From Parvibaculum lavamentivorans DS-1 (GTDB lineage Bacteria; Pseudomonadota; Alphaproteobacteria; Parvibaculales; Parvibaculaceae), in the NCBI RefSeq assembly GCF_000017565.1, contig NC_009719.1, positions 3,393,001 through 3,457,000 on the forward strand: a DNA stretch of 64,000 nucleotides, read 5' to 3'. The translations under genes were made by a program, and so were the position numbers. A model generated the notes under the pieces. The model was given only the letters and a program-made list of their open reading frames with translations, did not search any database and was not told the DNA's origin. Shown piece by piece: positions 30,914 to 35,754 of the stretch (its first letter is position 1; each line of letters opens with the position of its first letter).

Positions 30914-31345
30914 CTATTTCACCGGCTTGTGATGCAATCTTGCACAGGCTTCGGCGATGGCATGGTTACCGCCGGAAACATCCTGACCATCCATCGTGGT
31001 GTGGCCGGTATCCATATCGATGACGACGCGGGCGACGCTCATTTTGGTGGCGGAATTAAAGGCCGGATTGCGGCCTATCAGCGGATCGAGCGTCACATCG
31101 AATTCATAAACGGGGCGATTGCCATAGCGGTAGCCGTCGAGGTCGGCAGGGGCCACGGCGCTGCCATCCGCCGCGACGCCGGGGACATAGTCGGCGCCGC
31201 CGGGCTGATAGAGGGCGATGCGGCGGCAATCGGCTTCGGATATCTGCGCGTGACGCAGCTCATCCGCGCCGGCGAGCATTTCCTCCGCCGCGAGGGGGGA
31301 AACGATCAGCAGGCCGAGCAAGGGGACAAGGGCGGGCTTCATCAT
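30914..31345 (-). CDS. Small exported protein of unknown function
   Basis: 143 residues: signal peptide MMKPALVPLLGLLIVSPLAA, then a soluble domain. Two cysteines (EADCRRIALY and AEACARLHHK) could form a disulfide. YRYGNRPVYEFDVTLDPLIG and KMSVARVVIDMDTGHTTMDG suggest a beta-rich fold. No family is recognised. It is divergent from the NCS2 permease with an 86-base gap, and reads toward the larger exported protein. Confidence 0.65.
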   Translation of the reverse strand: MMKPALVPLLGLLIVSPLAAEEMLAGADELRHAQISEADCRRIALYQPGGADYVPGVAADGSAVAPADLDGYRYGNRPVYEFDVTLDPLIGRNPAFNSATKMSVARVVIDMDTGHTTMDGQDVSGGNHAIAEACARLHHKPVK

Positions 31346-31431: not shown

Positions 31432-32742
31432 ATGGCGGATGGGGGAAGCGGGATTTTCGAGCGGGTGTTCGCCTTGCGGGCGAACGGCACGACGATCCGC
31501 ACAGAGGTGCTGGCGGGGGCGACGACCTATCTCACGATGGCCTACATCATCTTCGTGAACCCGGCGATCCTGGCGGCGGCCGGGATGGATTTCGGGGCGG
31601 TGTTCGTGGCTACCTGTCTTGCGGCGGCGGCGGGCTCTCTCATCATGGGGCTTTATGCGAACTATCCCGTGGCGCTGGCGCCGGGGATGGGGCTCAACGC
31701 CTATTTCGCCTTTGCCGTGGTGCCGCTGTTCGATGGCGACTGGCGGCTTGCGCTTGGTTGCGTGTTCGTTTCCGGCTTTCTTTTTCTGCTGTTGTCGCTG
31801 TCGCCCTTGCGCGAGCGGATGGTGAACTCGATTCCGCGCTCGCTCAAGTACGGGATCGGTGCGGGCATCGGTTTTTTTCTCGCGCTGATCGGGCTGAAGA
31901 ATGCGGGCGTTGTCGCGGACGATCCGGTGACGCTTGTTGCGCTTGGCGATCTCGGTCATCCGGCCGCCCTGCTCGCCTGCGCCGGCTTTGTCGTACTGGT
32001 GGCGCTGCAATACAGGCGCGTACCCGGCGCCATCATGCTGACGGTTCTCGCGATTACGCTCGCGGCATTGTTGCTCGGCCTGCAGGAGTTCAAGGGTGTG
32101 GCGGCGGCACCGCCTTCGCTTGCGCCGACATTCCTGCAGATGGATCTGGCCGGTGCATTTCAGGCGGGTTTCGTCACCATCGTTTTCGTGTTTCTGCTGG
32201 TCGACCTGCTCGATACGACCGGCACGCTGGTGAGCGTGGCGCAGCGGGCCAACATGGTGGGCGCGGACGGCAATATTCCACGGCTGCGAAAGGCGATGGT
32301 GGCGGATTCATCCGCAACGATCATCGGCGCGGCGCTCGGCACATCGACGACGACGAGCTATATCGAAAGCGCGGCGGGCGTCGATGCGGGCGGGCGAACG
32401 GGGCTGACGGCGGCGACCGTCGGCGGGCTCTTCATTGCGAGCCTTGTCCTTGCGCCGCTTGCCGAGATGGTGCCGCTCTATGCGACGGCGCCCGCGCTCG
32501 TCTTCATCGCCTGCCTGATGGCGCGCAGCCTCGCCGATATCGACTGGGGCGATGTGAGCGAGACGGCGCCCGCCATCCTGACGGCGATTGCCATTCCCCT
32601 CACCTTCTCGATCGCGACGGGCATTGGCCTTGGGTTGATTTCCTATGTCGCGATCAAGCTGCTGGCCGGGCGGGGGCGGGAGCTGAACATTGCGGTAGTG
32701 GCGATTGCGGCGGCCTTCGTGCTCAAGCTGGCTTTGCAATGA
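31432..32742 (+). CDS. NCS2-family purine permease (AzgA/PbuG type)
   Basis: 436-residue inner-membrane transporter. The start MADGGSGIFERVFALRANGT, TYLTMAYIIFVNPAILAAAG and PVALAPGMGLNAYFAF are characteristic of the AzgA-like hypoxanthine/guanine/adenine permeases, as is STTTSYIESAAGVDAGGRTG in the second half. About 12 to 14 membrane segments are expected. Start ATG 31432 follows GGGGGTAG. The substrate is inferred from family membership only. It is the sole plus-strand protein gene in a long minus-strand region. Confidence 0.9.
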   Translation: MADGGSGIFERVFALRANGTTIRTEVLAGATTYLTMAYIIFVNPAILAAAGMDFGAVFVATCLAAAAGSLIMGLYANYPVALAPGMGLNAYFAFAVVPLFDGDWRLALGCVFVSGFLFLLLSLSPLRERMVNSIPRSLKYGIGAGIGFFLALIGLKNAGVVADDPVTLVALGDLGHPAALLACAGFVVLVALQYRRVPGAIMLTVLAITLAALLLGLQEFKGVAAAPPSLAPTFLQMDLAGAFQAGFVTIVFVFLLVDLLDTTGTLVSVAQRANMVGADGNIPRLRKAMVADSSATIIGAALGTSTTTSYIESAAGVDAGGRTGLTAATVGGLFIASLVLAPLAEMVPLYATAPALVFIACLMARSLADIDWGDVSETAPAILTAIAIPLTFSIATGIGLGLISYVAIKLLAGRGRELNIAVVAIAAAFVLKLALQ

Positions 32743-32829
32743 AACGCCGGTGTTGCGATCAATCCTGTCGGTAAGTTGCGGGGGGTGTGCGTAATGCTTG
32801 CAAAAATTTCGCGGAGTGCAAAAAGACGC

Positions 32830-32858
32830 GTGACAGGATGACGCAGGGTGGCTATAGT
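32830..32858 (+). promoter_or_regulatory. Promoter of the ncRNA candidate
   Basis: GTGACA (32830-32835), a 17-base spacer, TATAGT (32853-32858): a near-consensus sigma-70-type promoter. It points to a start around 32865 and is followed by no start codon with a ribosome binding site. Confidence 0.6.
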
Positions 32859-32864
32859 CCCTTC

Positions 32865-33004
32865 AACAAAAAGGGAAAAGCGCGATAGCGCGAGCCCAAG
32901 TTTAGGGAGGGAACGCTGACCTTGACCGTCCGAAAAGGATGGCGAGGGCGCGACCGAGGGAACACTACCGAGCAAGGCCACGAAAGTGGACCTTGCTTTT
33001 TTTT
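32865..33004 (+). ncRNA. Candidate standalone small RNA, about 140 nt
   Basis: The segment runs from just after a good promoter to an intrinsic terminator and has no credible ORF. Predicted local structure: CGCG (32881-32884) / CGCG (32889-32892) with a 4-base loop; CCGTCC (32926-32931) / GGATGG (32937-32942) around GAAAA; and a terminator of GCAAGGCCAC (32972-32981), loop GAAA, GTGG-A-CCTTGC (32986-32996) followed by eight T. Single-stranded purine-rich stretches lie between (around 32901-32915 and 32955-32965). It does not match tmRNA, RNase P RNA or SRP RNA as I know them; 6S RNA cannot be fully excluded. Downstream genes are all on the other strand, so it is not a leader. Confidence 0.6.
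32972..33004 (+). terminator. Intrinsic terminator of the ncRNA candidate
   Basis: A 10-bp stem with one bulged A (32972-32981 with 32986-32996), GAAA tetraloop, then T8 (32997-33004). One of the strongest terminators in the window. Confidence 0.85.
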
Positions 33005-33027
33005 GGGCTCAGAAAAGTCTCGAGATT

Positions 33028-33115
33028 CGTCATGGCCCGGCTAGTCCGGGCCATCCACGACTTGGCGTTGTCAGCCAAGAAAGACGTGGATGACCCGCAT
33101 AAAGCGGGTCATGAC
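33028..33115. repeat. Multi-stem palindromic repeat element
   Basis: Three nested or adjacent stems: ATGGCCCGG (33032-33040) / CCGGGCCAT (33046-33054); TCCACG with CTTGGC opposite GCCAAG with CGTGGA; and ATGACCCGC / GCGGGTCAT ending near 33113. Translated, this type of element gives pseudo-peptides such as MARLVRAIHDL...KAGHDG, which turn up in many alphaproteobacterial annotations as spurious short proteins. Confidence 0.75.
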
Positions 33116-33161
33116 GGTTTTGTTTAGATGGCCCGCCTAGCTGGCTCAGAGCCCCCGCCCC

Positions 33162-33205
33162 GAAATTTGCGAGAGCAAATTTCGACCCTCCCCCCAGGGG
33201 AGGGT
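33162..33205. repeat. REP-like palindromic element, copy 2
   Basis: GAAATTTGC (33162-33170), loop GAGA, GCAAATTTC (33175-33183), then ACCCTCCCC (33185-33193) / GGGGAGGGT (33197-33205). The first stem matches the copy at 22444-22465 apart from one loop base. Confidence 0.75.
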
Positions 33206-33253
33206 GGGAGGAAGATCGGTGCCGCGGGTAAAGTCCGACCCGGTTGCTCGGGT

Positions 33254-33532
33254 TCAGTATTCGTTGCTGAGGTCGGGCATGAAGGGGATGCTGTCGAGGG
33301 GGATTGGCTGGTAGATCCATATCCACGCGACAAAGGACCAGGCGATCGCGGCGATGATCGTGGTTATGCCCGCCTTGATGAGCAGGCCATGGCGCGCGGG
33401 GGCGCCGGCATCCGTTCCGGGGATGACTTCCTCACCGCTTTCGGTGCGGGATTTGATGCCCCAGGGCAGGACCGCGAAGAGCGTGACCCACCAAAGGATG
33501 AAATAGATGGCGAGGCCTGCGGGCCAATCCAT
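33254..33532 (-). CDS. DUF1467 family membrane protein
   Basis: 92 residues with two hydrophobic helices (IYFILWWVTLFAVLPWGI and GITTIIAAIAWSFVAWIWIY). The pattern YFILWWVTLFAVLPWG followed by a short hydrophilic loop with a GAPARHGLL-type segment is typical of DUF1467. The family is conserved next to mce and proS in alphaproteobacteria; the function is unknown. It is transcribed directly after mce. Confidence 0.85.
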   Translation of the reverse strand: MDWPAGLAIYFILWWVTLFAVLPWGIKSRTESGEEVIPGTDAGAPARHGLLIKAGITTIIAAIAWSFVAWIWIYQPIPLDSIPFMPDLSNEY

Positions 33533-33564
33533 GAATGCTTCCCCTGCCCGGTTTGCCCCGGGCC

Positions 33565-33969
33565 TTATGCCTGTTCCAGCTCGACCAGCGTGCCGTAAAG
33601 GTCTTTCGGGTGGAGGAAGACGACCGGCTTGCCATGGGCGCCGATGCGCGGCTTGCCCGTTCCGGTGATCGTGACGCCTTCGGTGTTCATTTTTTCGCAG
33701 GCGCTGTCGATATCCTCGACCTCGATGCAGATGTGGTGGATGCCGCCCTTCGGATTCTTGGCGAGGAAGCCGGCGATGGGCGAATTCTCACCCAGGGGCT
33801 CCAGCAGCTCGATCTTGGTGTTGCCGAGATCGACGAAAACGGTGGTCACGCCGTGGTCTGGCTGCGGCACGGCGTCCGAGACCTTGGCGGCAAATTTCGT
33901 GCGGTACATCTCGCCCGCCGCGCGCACGTCCGGCACGGCGATGGCAACGTGATTGAGGGGACCGAGCAT
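33565..33969 (-). CDS. mce: Methylmalonyl-CoA epimerase
   Basis: Vicinal-oxygen-chelate fold enzyme interconverting (R)- and (S)-methylmalonyl-CoA in propionate and branched-chain catabolism. It is 134 residues, a normal length. MLGPLNHVAIAVPDVRAAGE opens the first module; His7, one of His78/His79 in GGIHHICIEV, and Glu130 in LYGTLVELEQ are the likely metal ligands. KPVVFLHPKDLYGTL is characteristic. It sits after rnj in the conserved alphaproteobacterial order. Confidence 0.92.
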   Translation of the reverse strand: MLGPLNHVAIAVPDVRAAGEMYRTKFAAKVSDAVPQPDHGVTTVFVDLGNTKIELLEPLGENSPIAGFLAKNPKGGIHHICIEVEDIDSACEKMNTEGVTITGTGKPRIGAHGKPVVFLHPKDLYGTLVELEQA

Positions 33970-34050
33970 ATGCCTGTTCCTTAACCGTTGAATTCCGATG
34001 GCCCATGTTTAGGCCGGTTTCGGAGGCGGGGCAAGGCAAGCAGGAGGGGA

Positions 34051-35754
34051 TCAGATGCGGATGACGGCGATGGCGACCTGGGCCTTTTTGCCCCAGTAGC
34101 GGCGGATATCCCCACGGACGGCGCGGCGCAGGAATTCCGCTACGGCATCGTCGTCGCCGCGGCGCTTTTTCGGCAGGCGGTCGAGGGCGTCCTCCACCGC
34201 ATCCAGCGCCCGGTCCTCGAAGGAGACGCCGTTGCCATCTTCCTCGGGCAGGCCCATGAGGCGGACCTGCGGCTCGCCACGGACCTCTCCCTTGCCGTCC
34301 AGCACCAGGCTGACGAAGACGGAGCCGGCGAAGGCGAGCTTGCGCCTTTCGCGGACCGCGCCCTCATCGGACTCGGTCAATACATCGCCATCGAGATAGA
34401 TGCGGCCCGAGGGGACCTCGCCGACAATTTCGGCCGGGCCCGGCGCCAGGCGGACCATGAGGCCGTTGCGGATGACCACCTGCTCCGGCACCTGAAGCTC
34501 GCGCGCGAGGACGGCATGTTCCGCGAGGTGGCGGGCCTCGCCATGAACCGGCACGGCGACTTCCGGCCTGATCCATTGATACATGCGGGCGAGCTCATCG
34601 CGGCAGGGATGGCCCGAGACGTGGACGAAGTGGTCCTTCTCGGTGACGACGCGGACGCCGCGCTCGGCCAGCAGGTTCTGCAGGTCGAAGATCGAGGTTT
34701 CATTGCCGGGGATGATGCGGGACGAGAAGACGACGGTGTCGCCCTCCTCCAGCACGATGTGGGGATGACCGTCCTCGGCGATGCGGGCAAGCGCGGCACG
34801 CGGCTCGCCCTGCGACCCGGTGCAGATGAACAGCACCTTGTCTCGCGGAAGATAAGCGGCGTCATGCTCGCTGACGAAGGGCGCGAGGCCGGTGAGATAA
34901 CCGCATTCGCGGGCGGCGCCGACGACGCGGTACATGGAGCGGCCGACCAGCACGGCGTGCCGATCGCAGGCTTCGGCGGCGCGGGCGATACTTTCGAGAC
35001 GGGCGACATTGGAGGCGAAGGTGGTGACGGCCACCCTGCCCTCGCAGGATTTGATGAGTTCTATGAGGCTCGACGCGACATCGGCCTCGGAGCCGGAGGT
35101 GCCGGGCGAGAAGACGTTGGTCGAGTCGCAGACGATGGCGCGGACGCCTTCGTCGCCGATTTCGCTCAGGCGGGCGATGTCCATGTCGTCGCCGGCGACG
35201 GGATCGGGGTCGATCTTCCAGTCGCCCGTATGCATGACGAGGCCGAGCGGCGTGCGGATGGCGAGCCCGTTCGGCTCCAGGATCGAATGGGTGAGCGTTA
35301 CCAGTTCGATGTCGAAGGGACCGAGGGCGAAGCGGTGACCGAGGGGGATGATGTGCATCGGCACTTCGTTTTCGATGCCGGCCTCGATGAGCTTGCCGCG
35401 CACCATGGCGGCGGTGAAGGGCGTGGCGTAGACGGGGCAGCGCAGACGCGGCCAGATATGCGCGACGGCGCCTATGTGATCCTCATGGGCGTGGGTCAGC
35501 ACGATGCCGAGCAGGTCTTTCTTGCGCTCCACAATGAAGGCGGGATCCGGCATGATGACGTCGACACCGGGGGTGCGGTCGTCGCCGAAGGTCACGCCGA
35601 GATCGACCATGATCCACTGACGCGCCTTTGGCGGGCCAAAGCCATAGAGATTGAGGTTCATCCCAATCTCGCCCGAGCCGCCAAGGGGCAGAAAGATCAG
35701 CTCATCATGCGCGCCGGGCGCATGGGGGGAGGCAACGGAAGCAGACATACTCAT
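34051..35754 (-). CDS. rnj: Ribonuclease J
   Basis: Metallo-beta-lactamase/beta-CASP nuclease with 5'-3' exo- and endonuclease activity in mRNA and rRNA processing; 567 residues. The zinc motif is THAHEDHIG with His88, His90, Asp92 and His93. LPLGGSGEIGMNLNLYGFG is the usual opening, VCDSTNVFSPGTSGSE and CTGSQGEPRAALARIAEDGH mark the beta-CASP core, and VHVSGHPCRDELARMYQWIR with VPVHGEARHL follows. A second ATG two codons in (35748) is an alternative start. It lies between birA and mce. Confidence 0.95.
   Translation of the reverse strand: MSMSASVASPHAPGAHDELIFLPLGGSGEIGMNLNLYGFGPPKARQWIMVDLGVTFGDDRTPGVDVIMPDPAFIVERKKDLLGIVLTHAHEDHIGAVAHIWPRLRCPVYATPFTAAMVRGKLIEAGIENEVPMHIIPLGHRFALGPFDIELVTLTHSILEPNGLAIRTPLGLVMHTGDWKIDPDPVAGDDMDIARLSEIGDEGVRAIVCDSTNVFSPGTSGSEADVASSLIELIKSCEGRVAVTTFASNVARLESIARAAEACDRHAVLVGRSMYRVVGAARECGYLTGLAPFVSEHDAAYLPRDKVLFICTGSQGEPRAALARIAEDGHPHIVLEEGDTVVFSSRIIPGNETSIFDLQNLLAERGVRVVTEKDHFVHVSGHPCRDELARMYQWIRPEVAVPVHGEARHLAEHAVLARELQVPEQVVIRNGLMVRLAPGPAEIVGEVPSGRIYLDGDVLTESDEGAVRERRKLAFAGSVFVSLVLDGKGEVRGEPQVRLMGLPEEDGNGVSFEDRALDAVEDALDRLPKKRRGDDDAVAEFLRRAVRGDIRRYWGKKAQVAIAVIRI

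Follow-up and report, generated by a model that had tools for sequence, protein, structure and literature searches.

What is the role of the short intergenic unit that separates a permease gene from a DUF1467 gene in Parvibaculum lavamentivorans DS-1, and is it related to any known small RNA (sRNA)? The unit is located at positions 32830-33004 of the 64,000 nucleotides (nt) analysed here (NC_009719.1, positions 3,393,001 to 3,457,000, hereafter the window), and an initial annotation had described it as an sRNA candidate of no known family. To judge from its sequence, the locus most likely encodes a trans-acting sponge of the αR8 RNA MmgR and is the divergent Parvibaculum counterpart of the rhizobial sRNA αr9. 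This reading is based on a conserved promoter-to-terminator gene without an open reading frame (ORF), whose mostly single-stranded core is complementary to the MmgR linker, on the maintenance of this complementarity with paired changes across the class, and on a chromosomal spot shared with αr9.

Complementarity to MmgR

A permissive Rfam scan returned the suhB/mmgR family (RF00519) as a weak match on the opposite strand of the window (19.6 bits, cut-off 41); on the transcribed strand no match to this family reached the 41-bit cut-off. When the 175-base region was searched against its own genome, the top match after itself was a 23-nt segment, on the opposite strand, in the linker of MmgR (E 0.002), the next-best match having an E value of 0.17. 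The MmgR gene (G000:C1:2181288-2181361:+) lies 1.2 Mb from the sRNA and, with 78.2 bits, is the only strong RF00519 match in the P. lavamentivorans genome, where two more score approximately 30 bits.

The anti-αR8 site (GCCCAAGTTTAGGGAGGGAACGCT, 32894-32917, plus strand) forms 24 consecutive pairs with the MmgR linker, two of which are G·U. Its score of 23.0 over 24 nt was reached by none of 400 shuffles (mean 10.2, maximum 15.5). The core is thus a near-perfect complement of the linker, which consists of a 10-mer directed against ribosome binding sites (RBS) and its flanks, and complementarity to this αR8 core 10-mer is present within the bacterium's own genome.

It had been proposed from the letters of the locus that its G/A-rich segments could pair with RBSs. 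This is not supported, because these letters resemble an RBS and not the complement of one; the segment is the complement of the MmgR/αR8 anti-RBS linker. The RBS-like GGGAGG within the core, together with further conserved parts (GAGGGAA-ACTA in the genus and CCACATCACG in related genera), would also suit an ordinary trans-acting sRNA that acts on mRNAs through other loops, with the αR8 complementarity as a by-product of RBS mimicry. We consider this unlikely, since the complementarity extends well beyond the RBS-like string on both sides and tracks lineage-specific changes of αR8, such as CGCGGUC/GACCGCG in Sinorhizobium meliloti.

In one genome the RF00519 score on the opposite strand of the sponge-like locus (L029) is 42 bits (G006:C3:34268-34341), which is over the cut-off; an automatic annotation would therefore report an mmgR gene there, falsely and on the strand opposite to that of the sponge.

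A conserved promoter-to-terminator unit without an open reading frame

The predicted promoter (32830-32858, plus strand) consists of GTGACA at 32830-32835, a 17-nt spacer and TATAGT at 32853-32858, and is the sole sigma-70-like site in 31500-34500 (shuffles: mean 0.4, standard deviation 0.5). The unit ends in an intrinsic terminator with a GAAA loop at 32971-33004 on the same strand (AGCAAGGCCAC-GAAA-GTGGACCTTGC-T8), which a simple terminator scan omitted, probably owing to a one-base bulge. The proposed sponge RNA of approximately 139 nt would span 32866-33004, its start being placed by analogy with αr9, whose 5' end has been mapped in S. meliloti (PMC2780559).

DNA similarity detected the unit throughout the genus Parvibaculum. 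A covariance model matched all 40 genomes of the order that were examined, with the true locus in 39; the remaining one (G020, 57% complete) yielded only the opposite strand of its own MmgR gene. Promoter calling recovered the form GTGAC-(17 or 19)-TAnnnT at 34 of the 39 family loci (spacer of 17 nt in 32 and of 19 nt in two); one of the five misses is truncated by a contig end. The promoter and terminator postulated in the initial annotation thus form a real unit, conserved in Parvibaculum and its family, and the view of an sRNA without an ORF was likewise borne out, as no closed ORF was found inside the predicted transcript.

The absence of an ORF also bears on the direction of the regulation. 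Pairing is in itself directionless and an RBS-like GGGAGGGAACG is present, so that αR8 could be the regulator and the window RNA its target, i.e., a leader or a short mRNA whose RBS is repressed by αR8. This is very unlikely: besides the lack of a closed ORF in the window transcript, no ORF is conserved, 13 of the 38 relatives have no closed ORF at all, and a conserved terminator follows within 90 nt downstream.

The RNA is predicted to fold at -59 kcal/mol, compared to -38.5 kcal/mol for dinucleotide shuffles (z -6.0, with none of 200 shuffles as good). Its parts, all on the plus strand, are an A-rich 5' end (ACAAAAAGGG, 32866-32875), hairpin 1 (GCGC-GATA-GCGC, 32880-32891), the sequence of which varies among relatives, the anti-αR8 site, and hairpin 2 (32920-32947), a variable stem in which several pairs are changed on both sides. 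In the genus-level alignment 7 of the 22 predicted pairs were altered on both sides. The A-rich 5' end is also complementary to the 3' arm and U tail of the MmgR terminator, and pairs with MmgR CCCUUUUUUUG in the predicted cofold.

Within the RNA body no part is better conserved than the core CAAGTTTAGGGAG, whose mean column identity among 38 aligned sequences is 0.96, compared to 0.53 for hairpin 1, 0.61 for the linker with hairpin 2, 0.84 for the terminator and 0.97 for the T tail. It is also mostly unpaired in the predicted folds (mean 0.62 vs 0.40 for the remainder; higher in 31 of 38). It appears extremely unlikely that the locus is a relic which is never transcribed and owes its conservation to chance or to a reason at the DNA level, given that promoter, core and terminator are conserved whereas the stems vary, and that the S. 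meliloti counterpart yields a Northern band (PMC2573895, PMC2780559).

The sponge-like loci of two related genera (L110, L111, L119-L124, L126) have a loop, CACATCACG, that is absent from the own genus; this loop may be a second binding site.

Paired changes across genomes

The pairing table covers 46 genomes in which both RNAs were available (G378 and G034 were left out) and a core of 16 columns. Standard pairs occupy 728 of its 736 cells, a figure biased towards matches in that the sequences were found by their likeness to the core. At column 7 the sponge has C in nine genomes, in all of which αR8 has G, while in 31 genomes αR8 has A and the sponge T every time; the remaining six combine a sponge T with an αR8 G. 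At column 3 αR8 has C in three genomes, and the sponge has G in each of them. In 22 unique combinations 7 mismatches were counted, fewer than the 11.5 expected from shuffling of the partners (p 0.001).

Relatives and chromosomal position in the class

A model built from 38 Parvibaculaceae sequences alone (R2) was run on 385 genomes of the class and matched 63 of them at E≤1e-4. These matches are mixed, as R2 also responds to every αR8 gene read on its opposite strand. After exclusion of the own-family sponges and of the MmgR antisense of the window genome, 63 class matches were inspected and 22 were kept as sponge-like, with a terminator of their own on the sponge strand. In 19 cases the terminator was calculated at -11 kcal/mol or better; the three loci of family f116, in which the T-run is interrupted, were for this reason judged by eye. 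The 41 matches not kept were classed as αR8 antisense or as unclear. Exact-pattern matches outside the family (five places in four genomes) were rejected as sponges: four (L112-L115) are αR8 genes read on the opposite strand and the fifth (G043:C135, L118) falls on an RF00519 match.

At least one of the genes DUF1467, methylmalonyl-CoA epimerase (mce) and RNase J (rnj) flanks 18 of the 22 sponge-like loci, in 12 families beyond the own one, and none of 25 αR8 control loci. Among the signs that the sponge-like loci share a common descent, this agreement in position is the strongest, being independent of the sequence match.

Relation to αr9 of Sinorhizobium meliloti

The sRNA αr9 (SmrC9/SmelC289/sra32; Rfam RF02343, ar9) is an expressed RNA of S. 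meliloti and relatives, a conserved rhizobial orphan detected in 2007 and, in the parts of the literature consulted, described without a function. Its transcript has been detected and the 5' end mapped (PMC2780559); it yields a Northern band (PMC2573895, PMC2780559) and sits between SMc01933 and proS (PMC2780559, PMC2573895, PMC3927594, PMC7143759). In the public S. meliloti record the order is rnj, mce, DUF1467, a hypothetical gene, the RNA on the other strand, and proS. The RNA at this spot matches Rfam ar9 with 141.8 bits, and the loci of S. meliloti, Sinorhizobium and Shinella score 129-142. The position beside DUF1467, mce and rnj is common to the window locus and αr9; proS did not appear among the neighbours read at the window locus, but is present in an intermediate genome (G078).

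The R2 model matches the S. meliloti αr9 locus (L357) over its full length (positions 1-139 of 139, E 0.0003 over 25 kb), with E values of 0.0003 for Shinella and 0.006 for Sinorhizobium sp. The earlier statement that the RNA belongs to no known family thus holds as regards Rfam, where no model reached its gathering threshold, and fails in so far as position and profile link the locus to αr9.

The S. meliloti MmgR (L361), which adjoins an N-formylglutamate amidohydrolase gene, pairs through UCCUCCCUAGACUUGACCGCG with CGCGGUCAAGUCUUGGGAGGA of αr9 at 20 of 21 nt (score 18.5, reached by none of 400 shuffles). The rhizobial MmgR has a block, GACCGCG, in place of the Parvibaculum GGGC, and αr9 carries the matching CGCGGUC. 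The exchange of P. lavamentivorans MmgR against S. meliloti αr9 falls to chance level (62 of 400 shuffles as good).

As for expression, seven Smr RNAs were reported as differentially expressed, mostly lower in stationary phase, and smrC9 as undetectable in nodules (both in PMC2780559), and MmgR builds up at the entry into stationary phase (PMC7143759). The patterns of smrC9 and MmgR are compatible with opposed roles, a fit that proves nothing.

Observations that weigh against the proposed sponge and its link to αr9

Several results speak against a sponge reading of the locus or against its descent with αr9. When the shuffling is reduced to one combination per clade (12 clades), p rises to approximately 0.07, and the covariation test alone is therefore not decisive. 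In three genomes (G154, G345, G257) nothing passes the RF00519 cut-off except the sponge-like locus read on its opposite strand, and in two more (G137, G298) no match to this family passes it at all, so that the strand assignment or the partner is uncertain in these five. Whole-RNA duplex energies lie only moderately beyond those of shuffles (z -3.5 and -2.8), and at least one S. meliloti shuffle gave a lower energy. The S. meliloti MmgR still pairs well with the P. lavamentivorans sponge (19.0), which makes the specificity of the pairing one-sided.

The Rfam ar9 model reaches its gathering threshold (45 bits) nowhere in the window and gives no match over 32750-33130 even at E≤10. The syntenic markers are missing at four of the 22 sponge-like loci (G081, G298, G342, G120); G081 retains another neighbour of the window locus, and G342, which lacks synteny and whose opposite strand scores 49.1 bits with RF00519, is possibly an αR8 paralogue. 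Finally, eight Caulobacteraceae genomes possess rnj-mce-DUF1467 with no recognisable core nearby, within the stretch searched.

Proposed mechanism and significance

In the proposed mechanism the sponge RNA, when made, would pair with MmgR (24 base pairs in P. lavamentivorans) and block UUUCCUCCCU, the element through which αR8 RNAs repress mRNAs, so that these mRNAs would be freed. Formation of the duplex would probably also lead to the decay of MmgR through RNase III or RNase E, and Hfq may take part; since the duplex is long and uninterrupted, it is plausible that a double-strand nuclease degrades both RNAs together. Pairing of the A-rich 5' end with the U tail of MmgR, as predicted in the cofold, could in addition compete with Hfq. 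By analogy with MmgR (polyhydroxybutyrate, PHB) and with CrfA of Caulobacter, the regulation probably concerns carbon storage or carbon starvation.

The mechanism belongs to a known type, and the RNA itself is a divergent relative, beyond the reach of the Rfam model, of an orphan family already described. A link between αr9 and αR8 was not found in the literature searched, a coverage that leaves out most subscription papers, and term searches of PMC12559287, PMC8844928, PMC7143759 and PMC3927594 did not return one either. The reading proposes a concrete, testable function for the conserved rhizobial sRNA αr9, and suggests that the sponge principle of CrfA is probably general in Alphaproteobacteria. 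The naturally co-varying pair of sRNA and anti-sRNA also supplies many ready compensatory pairs for tests.

A wider proposal, which we regard as tentative and rather less than an even prospect, is that αr9 and the window RNA belong to one ancient, class-wide family of dedicated anti-αR8 sponges, which would have arisen from an αR8 gene through transcription of its opposite strand and then co-evolved with αR8, CrfA being either its Caulobacter form with lost synteny or a convergent replacement. Such an origin is suggested by the close mirror likeness between the 5' half of the sponge (A-run, hairpin, anti-linker) and the 3' half of αR8 (linker, terminator hairpin, U tail), as a result of which the Rfam αR8 model scores the wrong strand of the sponge up to or above the cut-off in several genomes.

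Neighbouring genes and other features

The locus had initially been described as reading away from all neighbouring genes, which is incorrect. The xanthine/uracil permease gene (PF00860, 31378-32742) lies upstream on the same (plus) strand, and the DUF1467 gene (33254-33532, minus strand) is convergent with the sRNA. Beyond it, likewise on the minus strand, are the other two syntenic markers, mce (33565-33969; glyoxalase-fold in Pfam, named by its matches) and rnj (34051-35754). A hypothetical protein of 143 amino acids (30914-31345) has no Pfam match; in several families far from the own one, homologues of it adjoin the sponge.

In the alignment of genus loci a conserved element, TTGCAAAAATTTC..GCAAAAA (32798-32824, plus strand), is seen upstream of the promoter; several species have an inverted repeat on either side of it (e.g., TGCTGC..GCAGCA), and it is a possible operator or upstream promoter (UP) element. 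Immediately 3' of the sRNA terminator lies an imperfect palindrome of approximately 89 bases (33028-33116), similar to repetitive extragenic palindromic (REP) sequences; a mir-5882 match to it (32.8 bits, cut-off 95) was dismissed as a chance fit. In some Parvibaculum genomes (L012, L022, L024, L030) the first terminator is followed by a second terminator-like copy (GCGAAAGC..CCTTGC-TTTTTTT or similar).

Comparison with known systems

Three known RNAs are relevant for comparison. The first is MmgR/αR8/suhB itself (RF00519), which the opposite strand of the sponge resembles, to the extent of the scores given above for the window and for G006. The sponge is its complement and not a copy of it, and has a separate genome position with its own promoter and terminator.

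The second is CrfA (CCNA_R0093), whose transcription start in C. crescentus NA1000 is given as 3781500 on the minus strand (PMC5988900). Exact and profile searches for a counterpart were made in Caulobacter genomes. R2 gave a single match at E≤10 in six of them, an αR8 gene in antisense, and no sponge. The pattern AGGGAGGAAA hit six places in two genomes, namely five αR8 genes and one apparent RBS, and among the sites listed for the pattern AGGGAGGN{0,4}RAACG in six genomes there was no sponge-like sRNA. A site resembling a thiC leader, found by the latter pattern in all six, we take to be a thiamine pyrophosphate (TPP) riboswitch. CrfA itself was not located through these genomes, and no homology with it is claimed. 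The proposed likeness is one of action: in Caulobacter crescentus CrfA pairs with the UUUCCUCCCU core of the αR8 sRNAs SisA-D, lowers SisA and frees its targets, so that αR8 sponging is experimentally established for this RNA (PMC12559287). As predicted for the window RNA, CrfA is an sRNA that matches this core through a G/A-rich pairing site; its protected site comprises 15 nt, compared to 24 nt in the window RNA.

The third is αr9. Its Rfam model does not detect the window RNA, and it differs from the latter in the sequences of its hairpins and in its pairing site, which has a U·U mismatch and another flank that fits the rhizobial MmgR. The two RNAs agree in their spot and orientation relative to rnj-mce-DUF1467, in their length (149 vs approximately 139 nt), in the A-rich 5' end, in the anti-αR8 core, in a CAAGGC..GCCTTG terminator, and in the full-length match to R2.
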